Positions 351 to 23,917 of a DNA stretch of 64,000 nt are shown piece by piece (within the stretch, counting starts at the first letter, position 1; each line of letters opens with the position of its first letter). The stretch spans positions 682,001-746,000 of the forward strand of contig NZ_JANUCJ010000001.1 in the NCBI RefSeq assembly GCF_024807615.1, read 5' to 3'. This stretch comes from Tsukamurella ocularis. Lineage in GTDB: Bacteria; Actinomycetota; Actinomycetes; Mycobacteriales; Mycobacteriaceae. The notes below the pieces were generated by a model, which worked only from the letters and a program-made list of their open reading frames with translations, made no database searches and was not told where the DNA came from. The position numbers were made by a program, and so were the translations under genes.

Positions 351-1577
351 TCAGACGAGCTGGTCCAGCGCGATCTCGAACGCGGTCGCGGCCACCAGCG
401 TCGAGCTCGCGGAGCGCGCACGACACCGCTCGAGCGCGGTGCCGATCGTGCGCGAGACGTCGCCGAAGATCACCTCGTCGGACACCTCGACCTCGCCCTC
501 CATGAGCATCGCGAACGCGCGGGCCATACCGCAGTTCGCGATGAAGTCCGGAATCACGGCGACCTGCCGATCAGCGTGCTCGTACACCGGGCCGTAGAAG
601 ATCTCGGGGTCGGCGAACGGGACGTTGGCCCCCGAGGCGACGACCTCGAGGCCGACGCCGATCATCGCATCGACCTGTTCGCGGGTGACGAGACGCGAAG
701 CAGCGCAGGGCAGGAAGACCTCCGCGCCGACCGACCAGATCCGCTCCGCGGCCTCGTCGAACGGAAGCAGATCGTCCGCGACCAGCTGGTTGCCCCGTTT
801 CGCCAGGAACAGGTCGGTCACCTCGTCGGCGCCGAACCCCTCATGCCGGACGAGGCCGCCGTCACGGTCCAGAATTCCGACGACGAGCGCCCCTGCCTGC
901 GCGGCGTAGAAGGCCGCGGCAGCGCCCACGTTGCCCCAGCCCTGCACGATCACCCGCTTGCCCGCGAGCGAGCCGCCGTAGACTCGGTAGAAGTGTCGCA
1001 CCGATTCGGCGACGCCCCAGCCGGTGATGAGATCGGAGACGCTGTAGCGGCTCCCGTGGTCCGGCGTGAACCGCGGGTCCTCGACCATCTTCGCGACGCC
1101 GAGCCGGAGTTGGCCGACCCGCTGCACGTGATCACGGCCGTCCGCGGCGAAGTGACCGTTCACCACGCCCTCCTGCGGGTGCCACAGGCCGTAGCTCTCG
1201 GTGATCGGCACGACCTCCGACTTCTCGTCGACGTTGAGGTCCCCGCCGGTGCCGTAGTAGGCCTTGAGCAGGGGCGTGACCGCCTTGAACCAGCGCCGCA
1301 GCACCTCGTCCTTACGCGGGTCCGTCGGATCGAAGTCGATCCCCGACTTGGCGCCGCCGATCGCCGGCCCGGCGACGGTGAACTTGACCTCCATGGTCTT
1401 GGCGAGCGATTCGACCTCGCGCCGGTCGAGACCGCGGCGCATGCGGGTGCCGCCGCCGGCCGCGCCGCCGCGCAGGGAGTTGATGACGGTCCATCCGCGG
1501 GCGGAGGTCTCGGGATCGTGCCATTCGAAGACCACCTCGGGCGCCTTCGCTTCGAACCGGGTGAGCAGCTGCTTCAT
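351..1577 (-). CDS. Glu/Leu/Phe/Val dehydrogenase family protein
   Basis: This 408-residue NAD(P)-dependent oxidative deaminase of amino acids carries the GGAKSGI motif near residue 75 with the catalytic lysine, a GTGGDLNVDE segment with the catalytic acid, and a C-terminal Rossmann domain starting at VIVQGWGNVGAAAA. The length is closer to glutamate dehydrogenases than to the roughly 360-residue leucine and phenylalanine dehydrogenases, so substrate is left open. The ATG start is preceded by AGGAG at good spacing. It points toward the end of the window and is next to an Lrp-type regulator and the homogentisate operon. A role in feeding aromatic or branched keto acids into catabolism is plausible but is inference. 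Confidence 0.85.
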   Translation of the reverse strand: MKQLLTRFEAKAPEVVFEWHDPETSARGWTVINSLRGGAAGGGTRMRRGLDRREVESLAKTMEVKFTVAGPAIGGAKSGIDFDPTDPRKDEVLRRWFKAVTPLLKAYYGTGGDLNVDEKSEVVPITESYGLWHPQEGVVNGHFAADGRDHVQRVGQLRLGVAKMVEDPRFTPDHGSRYSVSDLITGWGVAESVRHFYRVYGGSLAGKRVIVQGWGNVGAAAAFYAAQAGALVVGILDRDGGLVRHEGFGADEVTDLFLAKRGNQLVADDLLPFDEAAERIWSVGAEVFLPCAASRLVTREQVDAMIGVGLEVVASGANVPFADPEIFYGPVYEHADRQVAVIPDFIANCGMARAFAMLMEGEVEVSDEVIFGDVSRTIGTALERCRARSASSTLVAATAFEIALDQLV

Positions 1578-1719
1578 GTCGCTCCTGAGGACTGCGGGAT
1601 ACCGATGTGAACGGCATCACTGTGGAACTCACAGCACCTCGCAGGCAACGATCCGCCGGACGATCACACAGAATGCGCACCGAATGCGCAGCCCCGGGAT
1701 GCGGAGCTGTGCAATCTGC

Positions 1720-3629
<1,910 letters not shown>

Positions 3630-3656
3630 CGCGACACCGGATCCAGGAGGAATCCC

Positions 3657-4847
3657 ATGGCCTACTACCGCAGCGTCGGAACGATCCCGCCCAAGCGCCA
3701 CACTCAGTTCCGGCGCGAGGGCGGCGAGCTACACTACGAGGAACTGGTCGGCGAGGAGGGCTTCTCGTCCGACTCGTCCCTGCTCTACCACCGCGGCATC
3801 CCGTCGGCGATCACCTCCGCCGAGACGTGGGAGCCGGGCGACCTGAGCCTGACGCCCAACTCGCCGCTCCTGCCCCGGCACCTGCGCCTGCACGACCTGT
3901 TCGACGGCGCAGCCGCCGCGGACCCGGTCACCGGGCGGCGCCTGGTGCTGGGCAACGCGGACGTGCGGATCTCCTACGTGGTCGCCTCGAATCCGTCGCC
4001 GCTGTACCGCAACGCGATCGGCGACGAGTGCGTGTTCGTCGAGGAGGGTTCCGGCGTCGTCGAGACGGTGTTCGGAGCCCTCGACTTCCGCGCCGGCGAC
4101 TACGTCCTGATACCCCGCGCGACCACCCACCGCTGGGTTCCCGCCACGGGGACGACGGTGCGCGCCTACGTGATCGAGGCGTGCGGCGGGGGCGGCGGGC
4201 ACATCGCCCCGCCGAAGAGGTACCTCTCGCGGTACGGCCAGCTGCTGGAGCACGCGCCGTACTGCGAGCGGGACCTGCACGGCCCGTCGGAGCCCCTGCT
4301 GCGCGAGGGCACCGACGTGGAGCTGCTGGTCAAGCACCGCGGCGCGGGCGGCGCGACCGGCACGCGCTACGTGCTGCCGACGCACCCGTTCGACGTCGTC
4401 GGGTGGGACGGGTGCCTGTACCCGTACACCTTCAACGTCGCGGACTTCGAGCCGATCACGGGCCGGGTGCACCAGCCGCCGCCGGTGCACCAGGTGTTCG
4501 AGGGGTCGGGATTCGTCGTCTGCAACTTCGTGCCGCGCAAGGTCGACTACCACCCGCTGTCGATCCCGGTGCCGTACTACCACTCGAACGTGGACTCCGA
4601 CGAGGTGATGTTCTACGTCGCCGGCGACTACGAGGCGCGCAAGGGCACCGGGATCGGTCCGGGTTCGATCTCCCTGCATCCCGGCGGTCACGCGCACGGC
4701 CCGCAGCCGGGCGCGATGGAGGGCAGCATCGGCATGGAGCGGTTCGACGAGCTCGCGGTCATGGTCGACACCTTCGCCCCGCTGCTACTCGGCGAAGGGG
4801 CACGAGCCGTGGACGACGGTGTGTACTACCGCAGTTGGTCGCGATGA
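3657..4847 (+). CDS. hmgA: Homogentisate 1,2-dioxygenase
   Basis: This enzyme opens the homogentisate ring to maleylacetoacetate. The 396-residue cupin-type protein begins MAYYRSVGTIPPKRH and contains the cupin strand GDYVLIPRATTHRW and a C-terminal half with MFYVAGDYEARKG and SISLHPGGHAHGPQPG, where the metal-binding histidines lie. It is shorter than the roughly 430-residue proteobacterial enzymes but typical of actinobacterial ones. A strong AGGAGGAA ribosome site precedes the ATG. Its stop overlaps the next start (ATGA), which indicates translational coupling. Confidence 0.95.
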   Translation: MAYYRSVGTIPPKRHTQFRREGGELHYEELVGEEGFSSDSSLLYHRGIPSAITSAETWEPGDLSLTPNSPLLPRHLRLHDLFDGAAAADPVTGRRLVLGNADVRISYVVASNPSPLYRNAIGDECVFVEEGSGVVETVFGALDFRAGDYVLIPRATTHRWVPATGTTVRAYVIEACGGGGGHIAPPKRYLSRYGQLLEHAPYCERDLHGPSEPLLREGTDVELLVKHRGAGGATGTRYVLPTHPFDVVGWDGCLYPYTFNVADFEPITGRVHQPPPVHQVFEGSGFVVCNFVPRKVDYHPLSIPVPYYHSNVDSDEVMFYVAGDYEARKGTGIGPGSISLHPGGHAHGPQPGAMEGSIGMERFDELAVMVDTFAPLLLGEGARAVDDGVYYRSWSR

Positions 4848-5689
4848 GCTCACTCCTGGCCGGGCTCGTCGACGACGCCGGCCTGTTCCCGCCGACGGCG
4901 CTGTCGATGGGCGAGGCGCTGGCGCGGCACCGCCGCGACCTCGCCGGGGGCGACCCGATGCTCACGCACCGGTTCCTCTGCCCGGTCGAGCGGATCGACG
5001 AACTGCGCGCCGGTCTCGCCGATGAGGACCGGATCGCGCTGGGCCTCATCGCTTCCGCAGGAACGCCCGACGGTGCGCTCGCAGCCGCTTCGGCGACGGT
5101 CGACGCCGACCCGCGCCTGCGGCTCGCACTCGTGGAGATCGCCTGCGATCCCGCTGATCTGGGCGCGGCACTCCCGTCCGCGACCGCCCTCGGCACGCAG
5201 GTCTTCGTCGAAGCTCGCGACCGCGCGGACACCCCGCGCCTCGCCACAGCCCTCGCGGGACGCGCAGCGGGGCTGAAGATCCGGTGCGGCGGAGCCCGCT
5301 CCGATCTGTTCCCCCACCCCGACGAGGTCGCGGCCGTGCTCGTCGCGGCCGCAGCCTCGGGGGTCCCCGTCAAGGCGACGGCCGGCCTGCATCACGCGGT
5401 GCGGCACCGCGATCCGGCGACCGGTTTCACCCACCACGGCTTCCTCAACCTGGTGCTGGCCGCCGCGCGTGCCGCGGCCGGCGCACAGCACGGAGCCGTC
5501 AGCGCCGCGCTGGCGAACACCGACGGCCCGGCGCTCGCCGCCGAGGCGGCGGGCCTCTCACCCGCCGGGACCGCGGCGGCCCGTCGGCTCCTGCGCGCCT
5601 ACGGCTCCTGCAGCACCGCGATCCCACTCACCGAGGCCGCCGCACTCGGCCTCGCCCCCGCACCTCTCACCGAAGGACAGCGATCGTGA
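4844..5689 (+). CDS. Conserved unknown protein coupled between hmgA and fahA
   Basis: I do not recognise a characterised family for this 281-residue soluble protein. It starts MSSLLAGLVDDAGLFPPTAL, and the middle has alternating strands and helices (LALVEIACDP, QVFVEARDR, GLKIRCGG, GVPVKATAGLHHAVRH) that suggest a TIM-barrel-like fold. Basic and histidine residues (KIRCGG, KATAGLHH, THHGF) sit at strand ends where active sites form. The start overlaps the hmgA stop by ATGA and its own stop overlaps the fahA start by GTGA. The coupling implies a job in the same pathway. No zeta-GST or other maleylacetoacetate isomerase is visible in the operon, so this protein is a candidate for that step; this is inference. 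Confidence 0.85.
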   Translation: MSSLLAGLVDDAGLFPPTALSMGEALARHRRDLAGGDPMLTHRFLCPVERIDELRAGLADEDRIALGLIASAGTPDGALAAASATVDADPRLRLALVEIACDPADLGAALPSATALGTQVFVEARDRADTPRLATALAGRAAGLKIRCGGARSDLFPHPDEVAAVLVAAAASGVPVKATAGLHHAVRHRDPATGFTHHGFLNLVLAAARAAAGAQHGAVSAALANTDGPALAAEAAGLSPAGTAAARRLLRAYGSCSTAIPLTEAAALGLAPAPLTEGQRS

Positions 5690-6882
5690 CCACCACCTGG
5701 GCGCCCGTGCCCGCCGGCTCCGGCTTCGGCGTCGAGAACCTGCCCTACGGCGTCTTCCGTCCTGCCGACGCCGCACCCCGCGCCGGCGTGCGCATCGGCG
5801 AGCACGTGCTGGACCTCTCCGCGGCACTCGGCGATCCGGTCTTCGCGGCGCCGTCGCTGAACGGCTTCCTCGCGCGCGGCCGCGCCGACTGGCGCCGGGT
5901 GCGCGCCGAGATCATCGCGCTGCTCACCGATCCCGCGCGGGCGGCCGAAGGCACCGCCGCCCTGCATCCCGTCGCGGAGGTCACGCTGCTGCTGCCCTTC
6001 GAGGTCGCCGACTACGTGGACTTCTACGCCAGCGAGCAGCACGCCACCAACCTGGGCCGCCTCTTCCGCCCGGACTCCGCGGCGCTGCTGCCGAACTGGA
6101 AGCACCTCCCCGTCGGCTACCACGGCCGTGCAGGCACCGTCGTCGCCTCGGGAACGCCGATCGTGCGGCCGGCCGGGCAGCGGAAGGCACCGTCGGACGA
6201 GATCCCCGTGTTCGGCCCGTCCGTGCGCCTGGACATCGAGACGGAGCTCGGCTTCGTCGTCGGCGCGGGCAGCGACGCCGGGAAGCCCGTCGGCACCGGG
6301 GGTTTCGCCGAACACGTCTTCGGTGTCTGCATCGTCAACGACTGGTCGGCGCGCGACATCCAGGCGTGGGAGTACGTGCCCCTCGGCCCCTTCCTCGGGA
6401 AGAGCTTCGCCACCTCGGTCTCGCCGTGGATCGTGCCGCTGGAGGCGCTGGAGGCCGCGCGCATCGCGACGCCCCCGCAGTCCCCCGAGCCGCTCCCCCA
6501 CCTGCGTGACGTCGAGGACTGGGGTCTGGACATCGAGCTGGAGGTCGAACTCAACGGGGAGACCGTGTCCCGCCCGCCGTACGCGCCGATGTACTGGTCG
6601 CCCGCGCAGATACTGGCGCACATGACGTCGAACGGCGCGCGGCTGCGGACCGGCGACCTGTTCGCCTCCGGCACCGTTTCCGGCCCCGAGCGCGACCAGC
6701 AGGGCTCGTTGATCGAGCTCACGTGGAACGGCGCCGAGCCGCTGCGCCTGGCCGACGGTTCCGAGCGCACCTTCCTGGCGGACGGCGACATCGTCACCCT
6801 CCGCGCCACCGCGCCGGCCCCGGGCGGCGGCCGCATCGACCTCGGCGAGGTGACGGGGCGGATCGCCCCGACGCCCGCCTGA
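5686..6882 (+). CDS. fahA: Fumarylacetoacetase
   Basis: The 398-residue enzyme hydrolyses fumarylacetoacetate to fumarate and acetoacetate, the last step of tyrosine catabolism. The N-terminal SH3-like domain carries GSGFGVENLPYGVF. The C-terminal FAH domain carries DYVDFYASEQHATNLG, NDWSARDIQAWEYVPLGPF and KSFATSVSPWIVPL, which hold the metal and catalytic residues of the family. The GTG start overlaps the previous stop as GTGA, so it is probably translated by re-initiation. A hairpin terminator follows directly. Confidence 0.95.
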   Translation: MTTTWAPVPAGSGFGVENLPYGVFRPADAAPRAGVRIGEHVLDLSAALGDPVFAAPSLNGFLARGRADWRRVRAEIIALLTDPARAAEGTAALHPVAEVTLLLPFEVADYVDFYASEQHATNLGRLFRPDSAALLPNWKHLPVGYHGRAGTVVASGTPIVRPAGQRKAPSDEIPVFGPSVRLDIETELGFVVGAGSDAGKPVGTGGFAEHVFGVCIVNDWSARDIQAWEYVPLGPFLGKSFATSVSPWIVPLEALEAARIATPPQSPEPLPHLRDVEDWGLDIELEVELNGETVSRPPYAPMYWSPAQILAHMTSNGARLRTGDLFASGTVSGPERDQQGSLIELTWNGAEPLRLADGSERTFLADGDIVTLRATAPAPGGGRIDLGEVTGRIAPTPA

Positions 6883-6896
6883 CCCCGGGGGAACGA

Positions 6897-6930
6897 CGAA
6901 CGGCCCACGGATTCCTCCGTGAGCCGTTCG
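6897..6930. terminator. Bidirectional terminator between fahA and asd
   Basis: Arms CGAACGGCCCACGG (6897-6910) and CCGTGAGCCGTTCG (6917-6930) pair with a single mismatch around a six-base loop. The element lies between convergent fahA and asd and would serve both. Confidence 0.75.
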
Positions 6931-6953
6931 ATCCGTTCCGTCGAGCAGCGTCG

Positions 6954-9247
<2,294 letters not shown>

Positions 9248-9398
9248 GTGGAACCTCTCCGTTGCGGGCTTCGATGTGCGCCTCGATCGTACCGACCTGG
9301 GTTCTTCGGCCCGGAGGGCACCGCTCCAAGCGGTGGGCAACCCACCGTTCAGCCGGATCACGGATAATCGGTGGGAACGCGAACATCAGGAGATCCCC

Positions 9399-10196
9399 AT
9401 GAATCCCTACGGCGGCCAGAACCCCGGCGGACGCCCCGCCGGGCAGCCGGGCGGACGGCCCGGCGCCCAGCCCGGACCGTGGCAGGGCGGCTACCAGCAG
9501 CCCGGCCGTCCGCAGGCTCCTCAGCAGGGCGGCTACCCCGCCCCCCAGAGTGGTCCCGCGGGCCCCCAGGGCACGCAGGGCTTCGGCCAGCCGGGGCAGC
9601 CGCAGGGCGGGTACCCCGCCGGCCCGCCGCCGTACGGGAACGGCCCCGTCGGCGGACGGAACGGCGGCGGGAACGGCGGCGGCAACAAGGGCCTGATCAT
9701 CGCACTGATCTCGATCGTCGCCGTGGTCCTCGTCGCCGGCGCGGTCGCCCTGGGCGTGAGCCTGCGCAGTGACGACACGTCGACGGCGTCGCCCGTCACC
9801 TTCTCGGCGGGCGCCACCACAACGACGGCGGGCGCCCCGTCGACGGGCGCGGTCGTACCGCCCACCGAGCCCGCCACCCAGTCCGACGGCTTCCTCACCA
9901 CCGCCCCGAAGACCACTACCGGCTCGTCGACGGGCCAGACGGTGCGCCTGAAGCTGTCGGCCACCGGCAGCGGCGCGGGCGCGGTGCTGGTGGTCGGTGT
10001 GCAGGGCAACACCATCCCGAAGGCGTCCACGCTGCCGTGGGAGTGGCAGGGCACCGCGACGATCGGCGACCGGATGTCGCTGCTCGTCACCGGCACCGGC
10101 CCGGTGACCTGCACCATCGTGGTCAACGAGCAGGAGTTCACCCAGTCCGGGACGAACACCGTCGACTGTACGATCACCCGGGTCGCCGCGCCGTGA
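9399..10196 (+). CDS. Membrane-anchored Pro/Gly-rich protein with MmpS-like C-terminal domain
   Basis: The 265-residue protein has four parts. Residues 1-95 are a disordered Pro/Gly/Gln-rich cytoplasmic tail with repeated GGYP and QPG units. One membrane segment (LIIALISIVAVVLVAGAVAL) lies near 100-120. A Ser/Thr-rich linker runs to about 180. A small beta-rich outer domain ends in two cysteines (VTCTIV and VDCTI). The outer domain resembles the C-terminal domain of MmpS accessory proteins, which work with MmpL lipid transporters, but no MmpL gene is nearby. AGGAGAT precedes the ATG at good spacing. The next gene starts in its stop codon (GTGA). Confidence 0.75.
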   Translation: MNPYGGQNPGGRPAGQPGGRPGAQPGPWQGGYQQPGRPQAPQQGGYPAPQSGPAGPQGTQGFGQPGQPQGGYPAGPPPYGNGPVGGRNGGGNGGGNKGLIIALISIVAVVLVAGAVALGVSLRSDDTSTASPVTFSAGATTTTAGAPSTGAVVPPTEPATQSDGFLTTAPKTTTGSSTGQTVRLKLSATGSGAGAVLVVGVQGNTIPKASTLPWEWQGTATIGDRMSLLVTGTGPVTCTIVVNEQEFTQSGTNTVDCTITRVAAP

Positions 10197-11464
10197 CCGC
10201 GGTCGGCGCGCGCGGGAACGCCGTGCCCGACACCGTCGGTACGATGCAAGCCGTGCCGACCGCCCCCGACCTCGCCGACTCCGGAGCCGCGACGGCACCG
10301 TCGTCCCTGCTGGACCGCACCCGCGACATCTGGCTTCCGGTCGTGCTCTACCTCGCGATCCGCGGCATCGGCCTCGCGGTGCTGGCCCGGTTCGCACAGC
10401 TCCGCAACCAGAACCTCGCCGACCTCCTGACGGCCTGGGACGGCAAGTGGATGATCGGGCTGGCCACCTACGGCTACAACGACATGCCCTGGCGGTTCGT
10501 GGACGCGCGGGGCGAGCACACCGCCGACACGGCGTACGCCTTCTTCCCCGGCTTCCCCATGCTGGTGCGGGCCGTGGCGCAGCTGCCAGGCTTCGACGCC
10601 TACCGCGCCGCCCTCACGGTGAACGTGGTCCTCGGTTGCGTGGCTGCGGTCGCGGCGTACCGCCTCGGGCGGTTGTGCGTCGAGCACATGCCGAAGGTGC
10701 CCGTCCACCTCGCCGACCGCGCCGGCCTCCTCACGACCGTGCTGTTCGCCGCGGCCCCGATGTCCATCGTGCTGACGATGGCCTACACGGAGGCGTTGTA
10801 CTGCGCGCTGGCCGGCTGGGCCCTGGTGGGCGTGATGGAGCGCAAGTGGATCCTCGCGGGGATCTGCACGGCCCTGGCCGGCTTCTGCCGCCCCACGTCG
10901 GTGGTCCTCATCGGGGTGGTCGCGCTCGCGGCGCTCCTCGCGGTTCTCTCGTCCGACGGTGCCGAACGCGTCAAGGCAGCGACCTGCGTACTGCTCACGC
11001 CGCTGGGATGGCTGACCTACCTGCTGGTGGTGGCGCACCACACCGGGAGCCTGACGGGCTGGTTCCGGATCCAGACGGAGGGCTGGGGCACCACCTTCGA
11101 CCTGGGCGTACAGACGTGGCAGTTCGTCAACTACACGCTGATCAACGGATCGGACATCGCGGACCTGTCGGTAGTCGCGCTCCTCGCGGCGTCGATCGTG
11201 CTGATCGTGCTCGCGGTCCGCGCGAAGATGCCGTGGCCGGTCACGCTGTACGGCGCCCTCGTCGTGATCTCGCTGCTCGGCTCGGGCGGGCTCATGATGT
11301 CGCGCCCGCGCCTATTGCTGCCTGCCTTTGTGCTGCTGATCCCGATCGCCATCGCCCTGGCGAAGGCCTCGAAGCGGGCGCAGGCCTGGACCTGCGTCGG
11401 CGTCATCACCGTCACCTGCTGGTACGGCGCGCACATGGTGAGCGTGTACCCGCACGCGATGTAG
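10193..11464 (+). CDS. PIG-V-like polyprenyl-phosphate mannosyltransferase family protein
   Basis: The protein has about ten membrane segments and the layout of GT-C mannosyltransferases of the PIG-V/GPI-mannosyltransferase-2 kind. TAWDGKWM after the first segment, AFFPGFPMLVR, and MAYTEALYCALAGWAL match the conserved WDS/H, FFP and (N/T)E signatures of that family. It probably adds a sugar to a lipid-linked or surface acceptor outside the membrane. The start is uncertain. GTG 10193 overlaps the previous stop, while GTG 10253 lies 7 nt after a TACGAT box and would be a leaderless start. An ATG at 10244 is also in frame. The frame from 10193 is given (423 residues). Confidence 0.8.
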   Translation: MTAVGARGNAVPDTVGTMQAVPTAPDLADSGAATAPSSLLDRTRDIWLPVVLYLAIRGIGLAVLARFAQLRNQNLADLLTAWDGKWMIGLATYGYNDMPWRFVDARGEHTADTAYAFFPGFPMLVRAVAQLPGFDAYRAALTVNVVLGCVAAVAAYRLGRLCVEHMPKVPVHLADRAGLLTTVLFAAAPMSIVLTMAYTEALYCALAGWALVGVMERKWILAGICTALAGFCRPTSVVLIGVVALAALLAVLSSDGAERVKAATCVLLTPLGWLTYLLVVAHHTGSLTGWFRIQTEGWGTTFDLGVQTWQFVNYTLINGSDIADLSVVALLAASIVLIVLAVRAKMPWPVTLYGALVVISLLGSGGLMMSRPRLLLPAFVLLIPIAIALAKASKRAQAWTCVGVITVTCWYGAHMVSVYPHAM

Positions 11465-11519
11465 GACGGCGCACCGTCGGGCGCGACACGACGGGCCCCA
11501 GGGCCGGACGTACGCCGAG

Positions 11520-11546
11520 GGCCGGCAGGGCTGAGCCCGGCCGGCC
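11520..11546. terminator. Terminator between the mannosyltransferase and mbtH
   Basis: GGCCGGC (11520-11526) pairs with GCCGGCC (11540-11546), and inside it GGGC pairs with GCCC around a TGA loop, with one A-G mismatch. It separates convergent genes and marks the downstream end of the peptide-synthetase operon. Confidence 0.7.
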
Positions 11547-11565
11547 ACGGCGGTGGGGGGTGAGG

Positions 11566-11769
11566 TCAGGCGCGCAGGCTGAGCGGACGGATGTCCGACC
11601 AGGCCGACTCGATGTACTCGAGGCACTCCGCCCGGGAGCGGCCGCCCTCGCCGAAGGCGACGGTCCAGCCGCGCGGGGCGTCGCGGAACGTGGGCCACAG
11701 CGAATGCTGGCCCTCGTCGTTCACCAGCACGAGGAACTCGCCGGACTCGTTGTCGAAGGGGTTGTTCAT
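11566..11769 (-). CDS. MbtH-like protein
   Basis: The 67-residue protein has the family length and core motif: [19 protein letters not shown] with the invariant Trp, Pro and Gly-Trp residues. MbtH-like proteins bind and activate or solubilise adenylation domains of peptide synthetases. AAGGAG lies upstream of the ATG. It is the last gene of the synthetase operon, 50 nt after the permease. Its partner is most likely the three-module synthetase of this locus. Confidence 0.95.
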
Positions 11770-11819
11770 ATTCGTTTCTCCTTGTTGGAGGGATGGTGGG
11801 TCGGTCGGTCTGTCGGCCG

Positions 11820-12659
11820 TCAGTGCTTCATGTAGGCACGGGCGGCGAGGGGCACGATGATCACGATCATCGCGAGGGAGACGAGGGCCGAGTACGCGGT
11901 CGCGTGCTGCGCGGCCCAGTTGATGGGCTCGTCGACGATGGGCTTCGGGCTCAGGGGATTGCCGAAGGCCTCCCGCAGCGAGCGCGCCATCGAAGTCACG
12001 GGGTTCCAGGAGGCGATCGTGCGGAGCGGGCCGGGCAGGTCGCCGGAGGCGATGAACGCCGAGGAGATGAAGGCCATCGGGAACATGACGATCATGCACA
12101 GCGCCTGCGCGGACTCCGGCGTCGAGACGGACAGGCCGATGAGTGCACCCAGCCAGGACATCGCGAGGCCGAAGAGGAACAGCGCGGCCAGGGAGACCAC
12201 GGCGTCGACCCAGCTGCCCCGCATGCGCCAACCGACCGCGAGGCCGACCAGCAGCATCACGGCCACGCTGATCACGTTGACCACGAGGTCGGACGTGGTG
12301 CGCCCGACCATGACCGCGAGGCGCGACATGGGCAGTGAGCTGAAGCGGTCGATGATGCCGTTCTTCATGTCCGACGCCACGCCGATCGCGGTGGGGCCCG
12401 AGCTGAACGCCACGGTCTGCACGAGGATGCCGGCGAGCAGGAACTCGCGGTAGCGGTCGCCGCCCACCTCTCCACCGAGGGCCGACCCGAAGACGTAGCT
12501 GAACAGCAGCACGAACATGATCGGCTGGACGGTCGCGCCCAGCAGCAGCTGCGGGATCCGGACCAGCGTCGTCAGGTTGCGGCGGGTCATCACCGCGCAG
12601 TCGCTGAGGAATCCGCCCAGCGACGGCTCCCGCTCCCGCGGGAAGATGATCGCGGTCAT
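11820..12659 (-). CDS. DrrB-type ABC transporter permease
   Basis: The 279-residue protein has about six membrane segments and the ABC-2 membrane-domain layout. It starts with a cytoplasmic arm and [28 protein letters not shown], and its family motif around [14 protein letters not shown] lies before the last membrane segments. DrrB-type permeases pair with DrrA-type ATPases to export drugs, lipids or peptidolipids. Its ATG overlaps the TGA of the synthetase gene as ATGA. The only ATPase encoded beside it is the C-terminal domain of that synthetase, so the two must be partners unless an ATPase from elsewhere is recruited. Confidence 0.93.
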
Positions 12660-13600
12660 GCGTTGTTCTCCTCGGTCTTGTTCGCGTCCTCGCCGGTGAG
12701 GGCGAAGAAGACGTCGTCCAGGGTGGCCTCGCGCAGCATCGCTGACTCGACGTAGACACCGGCCTCCCGTAGGTCATTGAGCACGGCGACGAGCTTGTGC
12801 TGGCCGTCGGCCACGCGGATCGCGCTGAGCCCGGAGGCCTCCCGGATCGCGGTGCCGTCGATGGCGTGCCGGGCCAGGATCGGCCAGGCGGTCACTCGGT
12901 CGCGCTCGCGCAGGCCGATCTGGATCAGGTCCGCCGCGGCGGCCGACTTCAGCTCCGGCACCGTGCCGGACCGGATGATCCGGCCCTGGTCGATGATCGT
13001 GACCAGGTCCGCCAGGATCTCGGCCTCGTCCAGGTACTGCGTGGTGAGCAGCACCGAGATGCCGTCCTCCTTGCTGAGCCGGGCGATCACGTCCCACACG
13101 TCCTTGCGGCTGCGCGGGTCGAGGCCGGTGGTCGGCTCATCGAGTACCACCAGGCGCGGGCGGGCGACGATCGCCCCGGCCAGGTCGAGACGCCGGCGCA
13201 TGCCGCCCGAGTACGTGCCCGAGGCGCGATCCGCCGCGGCGGTGAGCCGGAACTGCTTGAGCAGCTCGTTCGCGCGGGCCTTCGCCGAGATCTTGTCGAA
13301 GCCGTAGAGGCGGGCGAACATCTCGAGGTTCTCGCGGCCGGTCAGGTTCTCATCGACCGCCGAGTACTGGCCCGAGAGGCCGATGATCGACCGGGCGCGG
13401 CGCGGATCGGCCAGGGCATCGACGCCGTCGATGGTCACGGACCCCTCGGAGGGCTTCATGAGCGTCGAGATGATCTTCACCGTGGTCGTCTTGCCCGCGC
13501 CGTTCGGGCCGAGCAGCGCGTGCACGCTGCCGGGCGCGATGTCGAGGTCCACGCCGTTGAGCGCGTACACCGCCTTCTTGCCGCGACCGTACTTGCGCGC
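12656..13600 (-). other. ABC ATPase segment of the NRPS polypeptide
   Basis: This is the part of the synthetase gene that encodes residues of about 3440-3753. There is no stop codon between the thioesterase and this segment. The best in-frame internal start is a GTG in the linker (about 13664), without a recognisable ribosome site. The simplest reading is a covalent fusion, not a separate drrA gene. Confidence 0.85.
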
Positions 13601-16600
13601 CAGGCCCCGGACGCTGACCAGCGGCTTGGTGTCGTCGAGCGTCTTGCTCTTCGACTTGACCACCGCGGTGTAGTTGCCGGTGAGGAAGGCGTTCATGGTG
13701 CGGGCGACCTCGTCGATCGCCGGCGACGAGCCGAGCTGATTGTGCGTCGCCTCGATGTCGTGCACCTGTACCAGGCCGGTCACGTACGGCCGCCACAGCT
13801 GCGGCACGAGGCCGCCCGTGGTCTGCTCCGTCGCGCGGAAGACCAGCATGTTGCCGTCGTACTCGCGCGGGCGGTGCGAGTAGCCCAGCGTCGTGTTGTG
13901 CCGATAGTTCGCCAGCAGCCGCTCCATCTGGCCGCGCGAGAGCTCTCGCGCCGGGCCGCCCGCCGAGGCCAGCAGGTCCAGGGCGTGGTCGGTGGTGAGC
14001 TCGGCGTCGTCGTCGACGTCGAGGCCCACGAACTCACGCAGCAGCGCCGCGATCGACATCTCCTCGCGTGGACCGCGGTATTCGCCCAGCGGGTAGGCGT
14101 CCATGAGGGCCAGGTTGACCTTCTCGCCCAGCTCCCGCAGTTCGACGGCCATCTCGTGCGCAATGAGGCCGCCGAGGGACCAGCCGAGCAGGCTGTACGG
14201 GCCGTGCGGTCGGCTCGCCCGGATGTTGCGGACGTAGGTGCGCGCCAGCTCGCGGATCGAGTCGGCGGGCGGCATCGGATACGAGATTCCGGGCGCCTGC
14301 AGGCCGATGATCGGGATGCTCGGGTCGAGCTCGCCCGATAGGCCCAGGTAGTTCCACGCGAGCCCGACGGCCGGGTGCACGCAGTACAGCGGTTCGACGC
14401 CCGGGGTGCCCGCGCGCAGCGGCAGGATCGGGTCGGTGATCGCGGTATCGGAATCTGCTGCCACGCCGGTGATCACGGCGGTGGCGGACACCGGCGCCGG
14501 GGCGCCCGCGATCCGGGCCGCGATCGTGCTGACCTTGGCGTCCTCGAAGAACCAACGGATGCTGGCCTCGTCGGAGTTGAACCGCTCGCGCAGCCGATCG
14601 ACGGCGATCGCGGCCTGCAGCGAGGTGCCGCCGACGGCGAAGAAGTCGTCGTCCATGCCGAGGGAGGCGACGCCGAGGACGTCGGAGAGGATCTCCGCGA
14701 CGGCACCCTCGAGGCTGGCCGCCGAGACCGCGCGCCGCGTGGGCGACGCGGGCCTCACGACGGCCGCCAGCGGCGTGGCCGGGGCGTCGTCGGCCTTGCC
14801 ACCGGACACCGGGCCGACGGGCGGCAGGGCCTTGATATCGGTCTTCCCGTGCGCCGTGACCGGCACACTGTCGATCTCGTGGAAGACCGCCGGGACCATG
14901 TGCCGCGGAAGGCGATCGCCCACCCAGGTCCGGAGGTCCCCGACGGTGACGGCGCGCTCGGTCACGTAGTACGCGACCAGGCGAGCCGCGGCCTGCGCTT
15001 CGATCGATCCGTCGCCACGGTCAACGACCACGACGGCCTGCCGCACGTCCGGGTGGCTCTCGACGGCCGTGGCGACCTCTCCCGGCTCCACGCGGAAGCC
15101 GCGGACCTTGAGCTGATCGTCGCTGCGCCCGACGAATTCGAGCACCGGCTCCCCGGAATCGGAGGCGCGCCAGCGCACCAGGTCGCCAGTGCGGTACATG
15201 CGCTTGTAGCCCTGCGCATCGTTGTACGGGTTCGCGACGAACCGCGATGCGGTGAGTTCCGGACGGTCCAGGTAGCCGTGCGCCACACCGGGTCCCGCGA
15301 CGTAGAGCTCGCCGACGGTGCCGGGCGCCACCAGGTTGAGACGCTCGTCGCAGATCATCAGCTGCGCGTCGGTCACGGCGCTGCCGATGCCCACGTTATC
15401 GGGGTCGACGGCGCCCATGGTCGCGGCGATCGTCACCTCCGTCGGGCCGTACGCGTTGATCAGGATCCGGCCGTTGGACCAACGGCGCGCCAGCTCGGTC
15501 TGCAGCACGTCCCCACCCACACTGAGCGCCTCGAGCAACGGCAGGTCACGGTCGGGGATCGTGGCGAGCGCCGCCGGGGTGATGAAGGCGTGCGTGACCT
15601 CGTTCTCGGCGAGGAAGTCGCCGAGCGGAGAGCCGCCGTAGAGCGTGACCGGCGCGATCACGAGCTCCGCACGCGACCAGGTCGCGAGCAGCAGCTCGAG
15701 AATCGAGGCGTCGAAGCTGGGCGAGGCGAAGTGCAGCACCCGGGCGCCGGCGCCGACAGCGTGCTGGCGGACCAGGGTATCGGCCATGGAGGCGAGGCCG
15801 CGGTGCGGCACGACGACACCCTTGGGCTTACCCGTGGACCCGGAGGTATAGATGACGTACGCGGGGTCGTCGACGCCCACCGGCGCGACCTCGGCCGGCG
15901 GGTGCTGGACGCGCGAGGACGTGAGGTCCACCGTGGTCCAGTCGACGGTCTTCGGCAGCCCCTCCAGGACCTCGCGGACCGCGAGACCCACAGCGGGTTT
16001 GGCGTCGTCGAGGATGTAGCCGATCCGCTCCGTCGGGTAGTTCGGGTCGACCGGCAGGTACACGGCGCCGAGGCGGGCGACGGCCCAGAAGGCGACGACC
16101 GAGGCCGCGGACCGCGGGATCGACACCGCCACTCGGGTCGCGGTGCCCACGCCGAGCCCGGCGAGGCGGTTGGCGAGCGCCGAGACGGCCGAGTCCAGCT
16201 CCGAGTAGGTGTACTGGAAGTCTCCATCGCGCAGTGCAGGAGCACCCGGGCGCTGCCGCACGGCCCGCGCCAGGATCTCCGCCATGGTGTGCGGCTCGAT
16301 CGTGGTGGAGGCGCGCTGGAACAGCTCCTGCTCCTCCGGCAGCAGCACCGGGAGGTCGGCCACCGGGGTGTCCGGCGACGCGACGCCGGCCGTCACCAGC
16401 CGCGCGAGTCGGCCGACGATGCCTTCGGCGGTCCCGGGCCGGTACAGGTCGGTGCGGTAGCGCAGGTTGAACCGGAGTCCCTCCTCGACCTCACGCACCT
16501 CGAAGGTGGCGTCGAAGGTGGTGGTGGCCGCGGCCAGCGGCAGCGGCTCCAGCTCGAACATGCCGCCACCGTCGGAGGTGATGACGCTGAGCGGGTCGCC

Positions 16601-19600
16601 CAGGTTCTGGTGGCTCAGCACCACCTGGAAGACGGGGTGGCGATCGCGGCTGCGTGGGGGCTGTAGTGCCTCGATGACCCGCTCGAACGGCGCGGTCGCG
16701 TGGACCAGGTCGTCGAGGTCGCCGCTGCGGATCCGGTCGACGAGGGCGTTGAAGCTCTCGGTACCGGTCACGGCGGTACGCAGCGCCACCGTGTTGACGA
16801 ACATGCCCACCACGTCGCGCAGGCGGCGGTCGGTGCGGCCGATCACCGGCGTGCCCACGACCACGTCATCGGCGCCGTTGACGCGGTGCAGCAGAGCCGC
16901 GAGACCTGCGTGCAGCACCATGAACATGGAAACGCCTCGCTTGCTGGCGAAGTCCGCCAGGGCGTCCCGCTCGGCCTGCGGCAGCACGATGGCGACCTCG
17001 CCGGCGTCGGTCGAACCGATCGTCGGGCGCGGGCCGTCGGCCGGGAAGGAACTCTCCTCCGGTACGCCCGCGAGCCGCTCTGCGAAGTAATCCACCGCGC
17101 CGGCGTCCTTCTCCGCCTGGCCACGCTGCCACACCGCGTAATCCGCGTACTGCAGGGGCAGTTCGGTCCACTGCGGCTCGGAGCCGGTGCTGCGGGCCAG
17201 GTACGCGGCCATGAGGTCGCGGGTCAGCGGCACCACCGAGGCGCCATCGGCCGCGATGTGGTGCACCGCGATCGCGAGGATCGAGCCCTTGCCGGTGGGT
17301 GCCGTCATGACACGCAGCGGCACGTCGCGGTTGAGTGCGAAGGGTCGGGCAACGAACTCGGCGATCGCCGACTCCTGGCCCGCGACGTTGGAGGTGGCGA
17401 TGCCGAAGTCGGCGGCGAAGTCGCGGACCTCGGGCGCATCGGCGGGCAGGATCTCCTGGTACGGGCCCTCGGCAGAGGACGGGTACCGAGTGCGCAGGCT
17501 CTCGTGCCTGGCGAGCAGGTCGCGCAGGGCGGCGTCGAGCACAGCCTTGTCGACGGGGCGGCTCGCGAGGAAGGCCGCGCCGATGTTGTAGGTCGGGCCC
17601 GGATCGATCTTGTTCTGCAGCCACATCCGCTCCTGCGCGGACGACAGCGGCATGCGGTCGCCGCGTTGGACGCGACGCAGACCCTGGTCCTCGAGCGCGG
17701 ACTCGTTGGAGATCCGGTCCGGATCGCCGGTGAGGGCGGTCGCGATGGCAGCGGGGGTGCGCAGGTCGAAGACGGTGCGCGCCTCTATCCCATTGCCCAG
17801 CAGACCCACCAGCTCGTTCGCCGACAGCGAGTTGCCACCGAGGTCGAAGAAGTCGTCCTCGACGCCGATGGCGTCACTGCCGAGCACCTTGCGGAAGGCC
17901 TCGACGACGCGGCTCTCGCCCGGGGTCGTGGGCTTTGCCGCGGCGTTGCCGGTGCCGCCGAAGTAGGGCTCCGGAAGGGCGGCGTTGTCGAGCTTGCCCG
18001 TGCTGCCCATCGGCACCGAGGCGATGATCATCACCGCGGCGGGAACCATGAAGCCGGGCAGGCGGGTCCGGACGTGAGTGCGGACCGCCGACGGGTCCAC
18101 GTCGCCCTTGACGTAGGCGACGAGGGCGGGCGCGCCGTCGGGACCGGGGCGCACCTGGGTGGAGACGAAGTCGACGCCGGGCATCGTGTCGATGGTCGCG
18201 TCGATCTCGCCGAGCTCGATACGGATGCCGCGGATCTTCACCTGGAAGTCGTTGCGGCCCACGAAGTCGACGATCAACGGACCGCTGTCGCTGCGGGTCC
18301 AGCGGACCACGTCGCCGGTGCGGTACATGCGAGCGCCGGGCTCGCCGTACGGGTTCGCGACGAACCGGGACGCGGTGAGCTGCGGGCGGCGGTGGTAGCC
18401 GCGCGCCAACTGCGGGCCGGCCACGTAGAGCTCGCCGGGCATGCCGACGGGCACGGGGCGCAGACCGTCGTCGAGCACCATGAGCCCCTGGCCGCGGACG
18501 GGCGGGCCGATCGGCACGCGGCCGTCGCCGGACAGGGCGTCGGAGATCGCGGTCATGATGGTTGTCTCGGTGGGACCGTAACCGTTGTGCAGGCGGCGGC
18601 CGACGCTCCACTTCTTCGCCAGGCCGGGGCCCAGCGCCTCGCCACCGGCGAGGACGTGCGTCCACGACGGGACCACGTCCGGGTTGACGGTCGCGAGCGT
18701 CGACGGGGTCAGGAAGCCGTGCGTCACGCCGTGATCGGCGATGATCTTCTCCAGCTCGCGGCCGCCGGTGGTGCCCGGAGGCACCACGACGAGCGGCGCG
18801 CCCACGCGGATCGCCATGAGATGCTCGAGCACCGTCGCGTCGAAGGCGGTGGAGGCGAAGGCCATCACGCGGGTGTCGGCGCCGGTCTGCAGGCGCACGT
18901 GCAGCTCCTCGGCGAAGTTGCCGAGGCCGCGGTGGGTGACCACGGTGCCCTTCGGCTGGCCGGTGGAGCCGGAGGTGTAGATGACGTACGCGGCGTCGTC
19001 CAGGTTCGGGACGATCTGCGGGTCGTAGCCGTCGCCGTCCAGGTTGTCCATCGCGACCCAGTTGACGCCCTCCACACCGGTTCCGGTGGCGGTCACGCCC
19101 ACGCGGGCACGCACGTCGTTCGCGATGTAGTCGCGGCGGTCCTGCGGGTACTTCGGGTCCACGGGTGCCACGGCGGCGCCGGCCAGGGTAATTCCCCAGA
19201 AGGCGGTGATGGACTCCGCCGAGCGCGGCAGGTCGGTCAGTACGGCCTCGCCCGGCCGCGAGCCCGCGGCGAGCACGGCCGCGGCCACCTTGCGGGCATC
19301 GGCGTAGAGCTCGCGGTAGCTGAGCGTCCGCTGCCCGTCGACCACGGCGGGACGGTTCGCGTACGTGCGGGCGGCCTCGCGCATGAGCTGCCCGAGCGGG
19401 GTGTGGAAGTCGGCCTCCACGCCGCGCACTGGGGTCAGCTCGGCGAGCCGCTCGGCCGACATGATCGGCAGCTCGCCGATAGTGGTCTGCGGGTTCGGGC
19501 CCACGGCGGTGAGCACGGCGACGAGCGCGTCGAGGATCGACTCGGCCTGCTCTACGCGGTACAGCTCCGAGGCGTAGCGCAGCTCGATGGTGCCGTCGGC

Positions 19601-22600
19601 ACCGAGGGTGAACTCGAGATCGAAGCGGGCGATCGGCACGTCGACGGGGACGACCTCGACGTCGACGCCGGCCATCGGGAAGTGCTGGGTGTCGAAGGGC
19701 CGCTGGTTGAGCATCACCTGGAAGATCGGGTGCCGGCCGGCGGCGCGCGGCGGGTCGACAAGCTCGAGCACCGATTCGAAGGGCAGGTCCGAATGGTCCA
19801 GTGCGTCGAGGTCGCCGTGGCTGACAGCGGCCAGGTGCTGCGCGAAGGTACGGTCGTTCGCGGTCCGGGTGCGCAGCGGGATCGAGTTCACGAACATGCC
19901 CACGAGGCCGTCGAGTTCGGCCTCGCCACGCCCAGCGACGGCGGTACCGACCACCAGGTCGCTCTGGCCGGACAGGCGCGAGATCGTCGCCGCCAGGGCC
20001 GCGTGCACCACGATGAACGGCGTGGTGGTGTGGGCCCGGGCGAGGCTGGCCACACCGGCCCACACCTCAGGCGCGACGCGGGTGTCGATCGCGCGCGCTG
20101 CGGAGACGATGCCGCCGGAGCGCGGCACCGCCGCGGGCGGCACCGACTCGGCCGGCGGGTCCGCCAGCACGTCGGACCAGAACCGGTCGAGCGCCTGGCG
20201 CGGCGCTCCGGTGAGACGATGCTTGTAGGACCGGGCATGCTCGGTGTACGTGCGCGGCAGCGGCGGGAACTTCGGCGCCTTGCCGCTGGTCCGCGAGGCG
20301 TAGGCGGTGGCGAGATCACCGGCCAGCGGCATCATCGACCAGCCGTCGGCGGCGATGTGGTGAATCACCAACACGAGCACCTGGTGCCGGCCGTCGATGC
20401 GGTAGAGCCGTGCGCGGATCGGCACGTCGGCGGCCAGATCGAAGGGCTCGCCCGCGTAGTCCGAGGCGGCCGACATCAGCTCGTCGAGCGCCACGGAGCG
20501 CTCGGTGAAGGGCACGAGGTTCGGGCCGGCGGGCAGCACCTGGACCTCGGGCTCGCCGGCAGTGGGCCCGTTGCGGTACACGGTGCGCAGCGGGGTGTGG
20601 CGTGCCACGACGTCGCCCAGGGCGACGCGCATGGCGGAGACATCCACATCGCCGCGCAGGTGCAGCGCAACCGGAATATGGTACGAGCCATCGGGACTCA
20701 CGCGATTGCGGACCCACATCTGATGCTGGGCGGGAAGCAGCTCGGCCGCCTCCTCCGGGTCCGACGGTGCTGCGAACTCGAGCTCCGGCTCGACGGCGAC
20801 GGCCGCGGTCTCGGCCGCCGCGGCGATGGCCGCTGCGGGCACGGGGGCGCCGCCGATGGCGGCCGCGAGACTCTCGACCGTGGGGTTCGCGAAGACCGTC
20901 GCAACACTGACGCGGGTGCCGGTCGCGGAGCCGAGACGCGCCGCGATGCGGGTGGCGGAAAGCGAGTTGCCGCCCAGGTCGAAGAGTGTGGTGGCGACGT
21001 TGAGGTCATCGATGCCCGCACCCGGAATCACCTCGGCGAAGGCCGCGGCGACGAGCTTCTCGGCGTCCGTCTGCGGCCCGCGGCCGGCGGACGCGTCGAC
21101 GGCGACGCGCTGGGGCTGCGGCAGCTGCTTGTGGTCCACCTTGCCGTTGACCGTGAGCGGGAACTCGTCGAGGGCGACGATGTGCGCCGGAACCATGTAG
21201 GCCGGCAGCTCCGCGGAGATGCTCGCGGTGATTGCGTCGACCTCGGCGGTGCCGGTGACGTAGGTGACCAATTCCGCAGTGGCGGAGACGTCGCCGTGGA
21301 CGACGGTGACAGCGCGCTCGGTGCCCGGTACTCGCATGACGGCGGCGTCGACCTCGCCGAGCTCGATGCGGAACCCACGCAGTTTCACTTGAGAGTCGAC
21401 CCGGCCGAGGAACTCGAGCTTGCCTTCGGAGTCCCAGCGGACCAGGTCGCCGGAGCGGTACATGCGCGCACCGTCGGCCTCGAAGGGGTTGGCCACGAAC
21501 CGCTCCGCGGTGAGGAGCGGGTTGCCGTGGTAGCCGCGGGCGATGCCCGGACCGGAGATGTACAGCTCGCCCGCGACGCCGGCGGGCGCCGGGCGCAGGT
21601 ACGGATCGAGGACGTACAGCCGGGTGCCCGGAATGGGCCCTCCGAGACGGACGGGCTCGTCGCCCGCAAGCGCACCGAGCGTGACGGCAATGGTTGTCTC
21701 GGTGGGTCCGTAGACGTTGACGAGGGTGCGCCCCTTGGCAGCCCACTTCTCGGCGAGGGCCTGCGGCACCGTGTCGCCGCCCACGCCGAGCGAGGACAGT
21801 GCGGGCAGCCTCGCCGGGTCGAGCGTGGCAACGGCAGCCGGAGTGATGAAGCCGCCGTTCACCTCGCCCTGCGCCAGAACGTCTTCCAGCTCCTCACCGC
21901 CGTAGACATCCGGCGGGACCACGACGAGCGCGGAGGAGCTCTCGACGGCCATGAGGAGCTCGAGGACCGAGGCGTCGAAACCCGGCGACACGAAGTGCAT
22001 CACGCGCGAGCCCTCGGCGAGGCCGTGCGAGCGAACCAGCTCGACGGCCAGACTCGACAGGCCGGCGTGGGTCACGCTGACACCCTTCGGCCGGCCTGTG
22101 GAACCGGAGGTGAAGATCAGGTAGGCGGGGTGCGCGAGGTCGATCGCAGGCCAATCAGCCTCACTGACACCGGCGTTCGCTCCGGGCCCCCACACGCGGG
22201 CGAGGTCCGCGGGCGTGAGGGTGGCGACGGGGGCAGCGGCGGAGGCAATGTGCTCGGCACGCTCGGCGGGCAGCTTAGGATCGATCGGTACGAAGGCGGC
22301 GCCGGTCTTGACGACGGCCCAGACAGCGATCACGGATTCGAGCGAGCGCGGAATACGGAGTGCCACGCGCTCTTCGGGGGCGGCGCCGACCGTCATCAGG
22401 TACCGCGCGAGGCGGTCGCTGTACTGGTCCAACTCGCCGTAGGTGATGCTGCGGTCACCGTCGACCACCGCGATCCGGTCGGGATACGCGGCGGCGGAGC
22501 GGCGCAGCAGGGCGGGCATCGGGACGGATGGCGCGGCGGCCGCGGGGGCGCCCGCGGCGGCACCGGCGAAGCGGTTCCACTCGGCGGCCTCGGCGGCGGT

Positions 22601-23917
22601 GACGACGTCGAGCGCGGAGAGGGGTGTTCCTCCCGGCGCGGCGGCGAAGCGCTCCAGGTACTCCATGAAGCGCTCGAAGTGGGCGTCCAGGTCCGCCACG
22701 GAGTAGGCGGCCGGGTTGGCCTCCATGTCGATCCGCAGGGCGCCCTGCTCGGACTCGTAGACGGTGACCGCCACGTCCTCGGCCGGGCCGGACGTGAGCA
22801 GGTTCAGGGTTCCGGCGGCCTCGCCCAGCGTGATCGCCGAGGAGAACATCATGATGTTGATGGTGTCGCCGAAGGTGGAGCCCACGACGCCCTCGCGCAG
22901 CGTGGGCGCCTCCATCCGGGCCGCAGGGTAGAGCTGGTGCCGCAGGCCGTTGCGCAGGTCGAGGCCGGTGCCGTCGATGATGTCGGAGACGGTGGCTCCG
23001 GCGCCAGCCCGGACCGGCACGGGGAGCACGTTCGCCGTCATGCCGGTGGAGCCCCGGAGCGCGGCGGTGGTACGGGCAGCCACTGGTACCGAGACCGAGA
23101 TCTCCTCGCGGCCCGAGACGGCGGCCACGTAGGCGCCGAAGGCGGCGATCACCAAACCGGTGCGATTGGTGCCCAGCCGCTCCGCCGCGGCCTCCAACCG
23201 GGCGCCCGCCTCGGCACTGGGGACGCCGTTGCGGCGCCGATTCAGGCTCGACGGTGCCGCGACGACGCGGCTGAGACCCGCCGCCTCGGGAAGAGTCGTG
23301 ACGACCCCCGCCCAGTACTCGGCGTCGCCCTCCGCGCGCGCCGAAGCGAAGTACTTCTCCTCCGCCCTGACGAAGCCCTCGGGGGCGAGCGGAGCGGGCT
23401 TGAGGGGAGGAACCTCGGCGCCGGTGACGCGGGCCGTGTACAGCTCGGCGACGCGACGCTGGAGGATCGAAGCACCGTAGCCATCGATGACTGCGTGGTG
23501 CGCGCGGGCGTACCAGAGCCAGCGCCCCTCGGAGACGCTGATCAGGCGGTTGATGATCAGCTCATCGGTCGCCAGGTCGATCGGACGCGAGTACTCGGCG
23601 CGCATCCACGCGACGGCGGCGTCGATGCGTTGATCCTCGGGCAGGTCCGCCAAGCCGAGATCGATGACCTGCGCGGCGCTGTCGATGCTGCGATCGATCC
23701 ACTGCACCGGGGCGCCGGACTCGTCGACCTCGATGCGGACGTACGGGGACAGGAACTCGTCGCTGGCCTCCCGAGTCGCAGCCTGCATGGTCTCGACGTC
23801 GAACGGACCACTGATGTCGACGTACTGCGCGACCGTGTAGGCGACGTCCGGGGACATCTGCTGGCCAAGCCACATTCCGTACTGGGCTCCGGTCAGGGAG
23901 TGCACCGCGTGGTCCAC
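12656..23917 (-). CDS. Trimodular NRPS with thioesterase fused to a DrrA-type ABC ATPase
   Basis: This 3753-residue megasynthase has the order C1 (HHAVIDG, about residue 140), A1 (TSGSTG at 603), T1 (LGGNSL, Ser985), C2 (HHIAADG at 1186), A2 (TSGSTG at 1648), T2 (LGGNSL, Ser2030), C3 (HHIAADG at 2219), A3 (TSGSTG at 2691), T3 (VGGTSL, Ser3099), TE (GWSLGG, Ser3247; Asp in MDAYP; His3392 in EATHNQL). After a short Lys/Ser-rich linker come residues 3440-3753, a whole ABC ATPase (Walker [10 protein letters not shown] at 3470, signature [12 protein letters not shown], Walker [23 protein letters not shown]) followed by the DrrA-type C-terminal domain. There is no epimerase or methyltransferase domain. 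C1 has no upstream carrier in the protein, so it is a starter-type domain that could take an acyl or aryl group. The GTG at 23917 follows AGGAGAG and begins the C-domain motif; 84 upstream open codons are excluded. The product is unknown; a capped tripeptide is inferred. Confidence 0.95.

Follow-up and report, generated by a model that had tools for sequence, protein, structure and literature searches.

Are a peptide synthetase and the ATPase of its exporter really one protein in Tsukamurella ocularis? The question is raised by a stretch of 64,000 nucleotides from contig NZ_JANUCJ010000001.1 (the window), where a gene on the minus strand (12656..23917) was predicted to encode a nonribosomal peptide synthetase (NRPS), a thioesterase (TE) and an ATP-binding cassette (ABC) ATPase. 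The first-pass annotation proposed that a single uninterrupted frame leads from the first condensation domain through the TE into a DrrA-type ATPase with Walker A, signature and Walker B motifs. Frame reading, Pfam searches and motif inspection agree with this. The polypeptide is probably at once a three-module synthetase with a release TE and the ATP-binding component of its exporter, derived from operon neighbours that were joined.

A synthetase and a transporter ATPase in one frame

The open frame runs on the minus strand from 24169 to 12656, 3,837 codons without a stop. The GTG at 23917 is the most likely start of the fused gene, because it is preceded by AGAGGAG and because in a Tsukamurella relative (L058) an in-frame TAG lies immediately 5' of the matching codon. 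The predicted product has 3,753 residues. Pfam detects three condensation (C), three adenylation (A) and three thiolation (T) domains, arranged as C-A-T three times, then TE and ABC_tran. No loading module stands in front of C1 (22610..23905, HHAVIDG). T1 (20846..21055, LGGNSL), C2 (19490..20704), A2 (17915..19399, pocket DALLLGGIM), T2 (17690..17884, LGGNSL), C3 (16340..17659) and T3 (14495..14719, VGGTSL) were likewise placed on the minus strand with approximate boundaries, A2 by Pfam and the others by Pfam and motif.

The TE (13685..14392, minus strand) is full length by Pfam and covers model positions 2-225 of 226 (residues 3260-3495, numbered from 24169). It contains GWSLGG (at 14185), LMDAYP and EATHNQ, which presumably supply the Ser, Asp and His of the catalytic triad as in EntF, and the top NCBIfam match of this piece is EntF. 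Motif and alignment comparison delimits a linker of about 20 residues (13625..13684) between the TE and a complete DrrA-type ABC ATPase domain with a C-terminal extension (12656..13624, both on the minus strand). ABC_tran matches residues 3537-3681 in the same numbering, with Walker A at 13510, the signature at 13213 and Walker B at 13153. The ATPase piece alone scores above the NCBIfam DrrA cut-off (316.3 vs 312.45 bits), whereas the whole fused protein falls slightly below it (310.2 bits).

By domain content the protein is a type I NRPS with a terminal thioesterase and a predicted peptide maker: the C, A and T domains have intact core motifs and are followed by a TE with GxSxG. The ATPase part has the motifs of a DrrA-type ATPase and an adjacent ABC-2 permease, but it is not a free-standing subunit, as it is fused in 13 Tsukamurella genomes.

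The permease gene begins in the stop codon of the fused gene, as the first-pass annotation had noted; its ATG at 12659 shares nucleotides with the TGA (12656-12658). It encodes a predicted ABC-2 permease of 279 aa (11820..12659, minus strand; Pfam, NCBIfam and Shine-Dalgarno pairing), and its ribosome site, GAGGAG, lies within the end of the ABC domain. Because the curated DrrB cut-off was missed (72.9 vs 223.05 bits) while the Pfam ABC2_membrane threshold was reached, the protein is named DrrB-type only. A PHROGs scan of the permease gave no match.

Conservation of the junction and its separate-gene relatives

Of 16 Tsukamurella genomes, 13 carry the TE-linker-ABC piece (598 residues) without a break (87-100% identity; the genome of the window is one of them), and a genome of another genus (G172) also carries a fusion. 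The TE-ABC piece has stop-free matches at 90-99% in eight named Tsukamurella loci. In a public record of T. tyrosinosolvens the fused gene is annotated as one coding sequence of 11,274 nt (3,757 aa), overlapped by the permease gene by 4 nt. This record is probably not an additional genome beyond G158, because its domain scores equal those of G158. Locus L165 (NZ_LR134469.1), labelled 'plasmid 27' of T. tyrosinosolvens NCTC13231, has leuA, lysC, asd and the NRPS operon ordered as in the window, and is probably a chromosomal contig mislabelled as a plasmid.

A sequencing or assembly error would leave a stop or frameshift between TE and ABC in correctly read genomes, and none is present in the 13 Tsukamurella genomes. 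Their assemblies agree with each other, with the eight matching named records, which come from different strains, and with the annotated public record. Chance or error is thus excluded for Tsukamurella, where nothing was found in its support, by the unbroken junction in 13 of 16 genomes. For Tsukamurella an artefact is extremely improbable; the G172 fusion is carried by a single genome, and there an error is possible.

The three other Tsukamurella genomes lack a TE-ABC match, and their best permease matches reach only 38-45% identity, compared with 80% in the carrier G053. In G207 a glycosyltransferase gene adjoins leuA at the locus and the operon between is missing; G168 has 3.7 kb of DNA there without a match to operon parts. 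The assembly of G198, the third of these genomes, is in 890 contigs. None of the 16 Tsukamurella genomes showed a separate-gene form.

Outside Tsukamurella the usual arrangement is different. Related operons were counted where a locus had a TE, an ABC ATPase and a permease scoring at least 250 bits against the window's permease; they are the best-scoring matches in the family and not a random sample. In 50 of 64 such operons the NRPS-TE and the ABC ATPase lie in separate frames (L025, L030-L038, L104-L106, L108-L132, L150, L151, L168-L177), and the 14 fused ones are the 13 of Tsukamurella and G172. This agrees with the expectation that synthetases and their exporters are normally separate proteins. 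L107 (TE outside the locus), L029 and the weak double-permease loci L022-L024, L027 and L028 were left out of the count; in the latter five TE and ABC are separate as well. The 50 separate-gene operons include 43 with an MbtH match close to the NRPS end (the exceptions are L025, L032, L037, L038, L150, L174 and L175). The MbtH gene stands between NRPS and ATPase in most separate-gene relatives and after the permease in the 13 Tsukamurella loci, and none was found in the G172 locus (19.5 kb). Two Streptomyces plasmids have NRPS, ABC and permease as separate neighbours, with MbtH between them in one. Because relatives of the ATPase and the permease adjoin relatives of the NRPS as separate genes in other genera, the fusion is, judged by these gene neighbourhoods, a union of operon partners and no chimera of strangers.

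Several loci have unusual frames. L022, L023, L024, L027 and L028 each have exactly one in-frame TGA between TE and ABC, and two weak permease matches. Programmed read-through was considered for them; with two weakly matching permeases these operons look like a separate DrrABC-type group, and the TGA spacing could reflect chance or selection bias of the search. Frames of about 5,000 aa in other genera were also rejected as fusions, since stops between TE and ABC appeared once they were read. In L025/L046 (G022) the separate ATPase downstream of an NRPS-TE is itself divided between two frames, through either a mutation or an error of sequencing. A DrrA-type ATPase and a permease share one open frame in L080, L081, L083 and L147 (Kribbella, actinobacterial metagenome-assembled genomes, and Tsukamurella G207 at 1,378 codons).

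The surveys with the TE-ABC query covered 301 genomes of the family (271 matching at 1e-60), 394 of the class (43 at 1e-85) and 397 of the order (5 at 1e-92), and a family survey with the G172 query covered 401 genomes (57 at 1e-103); these samples overlap. Among the matches listed in the genome surveys, of which the doubtful ones were read, no stop-free TE-ABC span was found beyond Tsukamurella and G172. In the plasmid collection 1,027 of 72,556 records match the TE-ABC query, and the best 10 of these 1,027 include one fused Tsukamurella record.

In the ABC tree (82 rows) the eight Tsukamurella ATPases form a clade (support 100/100) amid the ATPases of the family's NRPS operons. L029 of G012 is placed closest to them (83/96, long branch); this ATPase-permease pair, with a permease match of 332 bits, lies beside a divergent, separate NRPS-TE in two open frames. 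This four-module NRPS-TE was observed as L178 (G012, 1424-17098), divergent to the L029 ATPase and permease genes; the second such locus is L151. In a quick TE tree the Tsukamurella TEs share a clade with L025, L030-L032, L037 and L038 (Shimodaira-Hasegawa-like approximate likelihood ratio test, SH-aLRT: 99), and are nearest to the L022-L024, L027, L028 group (84).

The second fusion belongs to a genus (g9) sampled with 59 genomes, 39 of which match at 1e-80. Of 41 listed matches 36 were read, the other five being ABC matches in frames of at most 530 aa, and G172 is the one fused locus among the 36. Its frame (4,361 aa) contains four C, three A and four T domains, TE and ABC. The second module of this locus (L039, residues about 1094-1616) consists of C and T without an A domain match. 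The G172 ATPase is placed inside the separate-gene ATPases of g9 (100/100), apart from the Tsukamurella clade, and its TE groups with a majority of these g9 loci (SH-aLRT: 92, below the limit for a star). Forcing all fused ATPases into one clade, tested on 40 of the 82 ABC rows, costs 53.9 log-likelihood units (approximately unbiased test, AU: p 0.011); the group was picked after the first tree had been seen, and long branches are involved, G172's included. A common origin of both fusions was rejected with these caveats. Since the G172 fusion is phylogenetically separate and a single fused clade is rejected, the fusion appears to have arisen at least twice, the second time in another genus, although some doubt remains.

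Proposed coupling of synthesis and export

The fused gene would have originated when neighbouring genes of an operon for NRPS, ABC ATPase and permease were joined end to end, with MbtH now placed after the permease, unlike in most separate-gene relatives. ABC exporters need two ATPase domains. In the T. tyrosinosolvens annotation the operon has a single ATPase domain and a single permease gene, and the simplest assembly would therefore be two synthetases per permease homodimer. Two synthetase chains would bring their C-terminal ATPase domains together on this homodimer, and the ATPase would drive the neighbouring permease and remain the motor of the exporter. Such pairing would keep the synthetase at the membrane, where a peptide released by the TE could be exported at the site of synthesis. 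That the ATPase domain still powers the exporter while anchored to the synthetase is the most likely reading of the domains, and coupled release and export are plausible; the link might also set one ATPase per synthetase, as the first-pass annotation proposed. A bolder and less probable reading is that the synthetase has become a structural subunit of the exporter. Two assembly lines would then clamp the permease dimer, ATP hydrolysis, TE release and export would be mechanically coupled, the peptide need not be free in the cytoplasm, and this coupling would have been selected twice in the same type of operon.

Selection was compared along the junction over all pairs of the 13 fused Tsukamurella genomes. 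The ratio of nonsynonymous to synonymous substitution rates (dN/dS) rises from 0.13 in the TE part to 0.47 in the linker (18 codons), falls to 0.07 in the ABC core and is 0.14 in the C-terminal part of ABC. The linker is the fastest-changing and the ABC core the most constrained of these parts. From the low dN/dS on either side of the junction it follows that TE and ABC are both maintained as working proteins; the linker may act as a flexible tether.

The low dN/dS of the ABC core also bears on whether the domain is a regulatory or self-protection ATPase of a synthetase that has lost export. Walker A, signature and Walker B are intact, and all 13 fused Tsukamurella loci retain a permease gene that overlaps the fused gene at its end, which makes such a role very improbable. 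It is somewhat unlikely that the fusion is real but has no role in coupling, i.e. that the stop between two neighbours was lost by drift and the ATPase works equally well on the tail of a passenger synthetase. The fast evolution of the linker would fit this, as would the separate genes in most relatives examined (50 of 64) and the three Tsukamurella genomes without a TE-ABC match, in two of which the site was examined and the operon is missing. Against it, 13 loci stay fused down to 87% identity and no separate-gene form occurs in the 16 genomes, the best permease matches of the three non-carriers being 38-45% identical against 80% in G053, and a similar fusion occurs separately in G172, though both facts are compatible with drift too.

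Several observations weigh against an intact synthetase-exporter protein or against its repeated origin. The second fusion is known from one genome. The nearest branch to Tsukamurella varies between trees (L029 for ABC; L022-L024, L027 and L028 for TE; both long), so that in Tsukamurella TE and ABC are likely, rather than certain, to have descended together as a pair. The fast-changing linker could also be cleaved by proteases. The ATG at 13696 (13694..13696, minus strand), identified by alignment, Shine-Dalgarno pairing and synonymous variation, is the best internal-start candidate for a free ATPase: a Shine-Dalgarno-like site pairs at -6.6 kcal/mol in 10 of 13 genomes (GAGG upstream) and at -3.0 in the other 3, and only 4.6% of the gene's 65 in-frame ATGs, this one counted, reach -6.6 kcal/mol.

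The fused frame might thus also, or mainly, yield a free ATPase, through this ATG or through linker cleavage, and the exporter would then be assembled conventionally. The stretch from the TE serine to Walker A was searched for in-frame start codons shared by 10 or more of the 13 genomes; within the junction, the ATG alone is conserved in 13 of 13, and the piece that begins with it exceeds the DrrA cut-off as a separate protein. However, it doubles as a codon for a residue near the TE end, its spacing to the Shine-Dalgarno-like site is long and the pairing drops to -3.0 kcal/mol in three genomes. The 8 codons before it show ordinary synonymous variation (20% of TE-ABC windows are lower), while the 10 codons ahead of the permease start have almost no synonymous change (0.7% of windows lower) and the permease ribosome site pairs well (mean -8.9 kcal/mol). 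The permease start is a constrained ribosome site and the ATG has no such sign, which weighs against a dedicated internal ATPase start. In G172 no start of similar quality lies 25-75 codons ahead of Walker A (best pairing -2.6 kcal/mol). The internal start suggested near 13664 in the first-pass annotation corresponds to a GTG at 13663; it was rejected, being GTG in only 10 of 13 genomes with weak Shine-Dalgarno pairing. A free ATPase is overall unlikely, and a synthetase that carries its exporter's ATPase remains the preferred interpretation.

Gene surroundings and known systems

Downstream (3') of the permease gene lies a gene for an MbtH-like protein of 67 aa (11566..11769, minus strand; Pfam MbtH 93.8 bits). 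By the names in the T. tyrosinosolvens annotation, leuA is located upstream of the operon on the opposite strand, and lysC and asd past its downstream end. Beyond lysC and asd, positions 351-6882 of the window contain genes of tyrosine catabolism (hppD, homogentisate dioxygenase, fumarylacetoacetase) and an amino-acid dehydrogenase, in an order identical to that annotated in T. tyrosinosolvens. Scanning 11300-14500 for promoters and terminators gave no hit. No iron-regulator box was matched in the whole window at up to 3 mismatches, and a siderophore role indicated by such a box was rejected.

No published description of an NRPS-ABC fusion protein was found among the matches listed from the open-access literature of PubMed Central (PMC), and within that scope the statement that no described example of the NRPS-TE-ABC architecture is known is supported. 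The accessible text of a study of Planktothrix (PMC2739229) names ABC transporters in its background among the frequent modules or domains of NRPS complexes and then describes ABC transporter genes as members of clusters, with no fused protein; in that of a study of Rhodococcus clusters (PMC5550956) the term 'ABC transporter' does not occur. The fusion is present in public annotation yet undescribed as far as this search reached: a real, conserved architecture in an otherwise familiar type of cluster.

The closest known arrangements are the operons of the family and of Streptomyces with separate NRPS, ABC ATPase and permease genes, usually with MbtH. The gene kinds are alike and lie side by side, and TE, ABC and permease are related. 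They differ in that ABC and NRPS are distinct proteins with stops between them and in that MbtH is near the NRPS end (43 of 50); the four-module separate-gene forms whose full length was read (L040-L046) open with a serine-like A domain, which Tsukamurella lacks. The fusion indicates which ATPase and permease serve this type of NRPS. The catechol siderophore synthetases EntF and MxcG resemble the fused protein in that both models match the region of its first module, and EntF is the best NCBIfam match of its TE piece. The scores are nevertheless far below the curated cut-offs (EntF 1174.9 vs 2400 bits; MxcG 1235.3 vs 2300 bits), which does not support identity as an enterobactin or myxochelin synthetase, and the models as matched contain no ABC domain.

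On the export side, the related DrrABC of the phthiocerol dimycocerosate (PDIM) pathway in Mycobacterium is modelled, in the accessible part of PMC11539658, as two DrrA on DrrBC. It likewise pairs a DrrA-type ATPase with a DrrB-type permease for a large assembly-line product, but its ATPase is a free protein and its permease a DrrB/DrrC heterodimer. The route of assembly-line products to exporters is poorly known. A natural covalent synthetase-exporter fusion, conserved in a genus and accompanied by many separate-gene controls, makes the coupling of synthesis and export testable. A physical link between a biosynthetic megaenzyme and a transporter is reported for PpsE and MmpL7 of Mycobacterium tuberculosis in the accessible part of PMC1238737; unlike the Tsukamurella fusion, that contact is non-covalent and joins a polyketide synthase to a transporter of the resistance-nodulation-division (RND) type.
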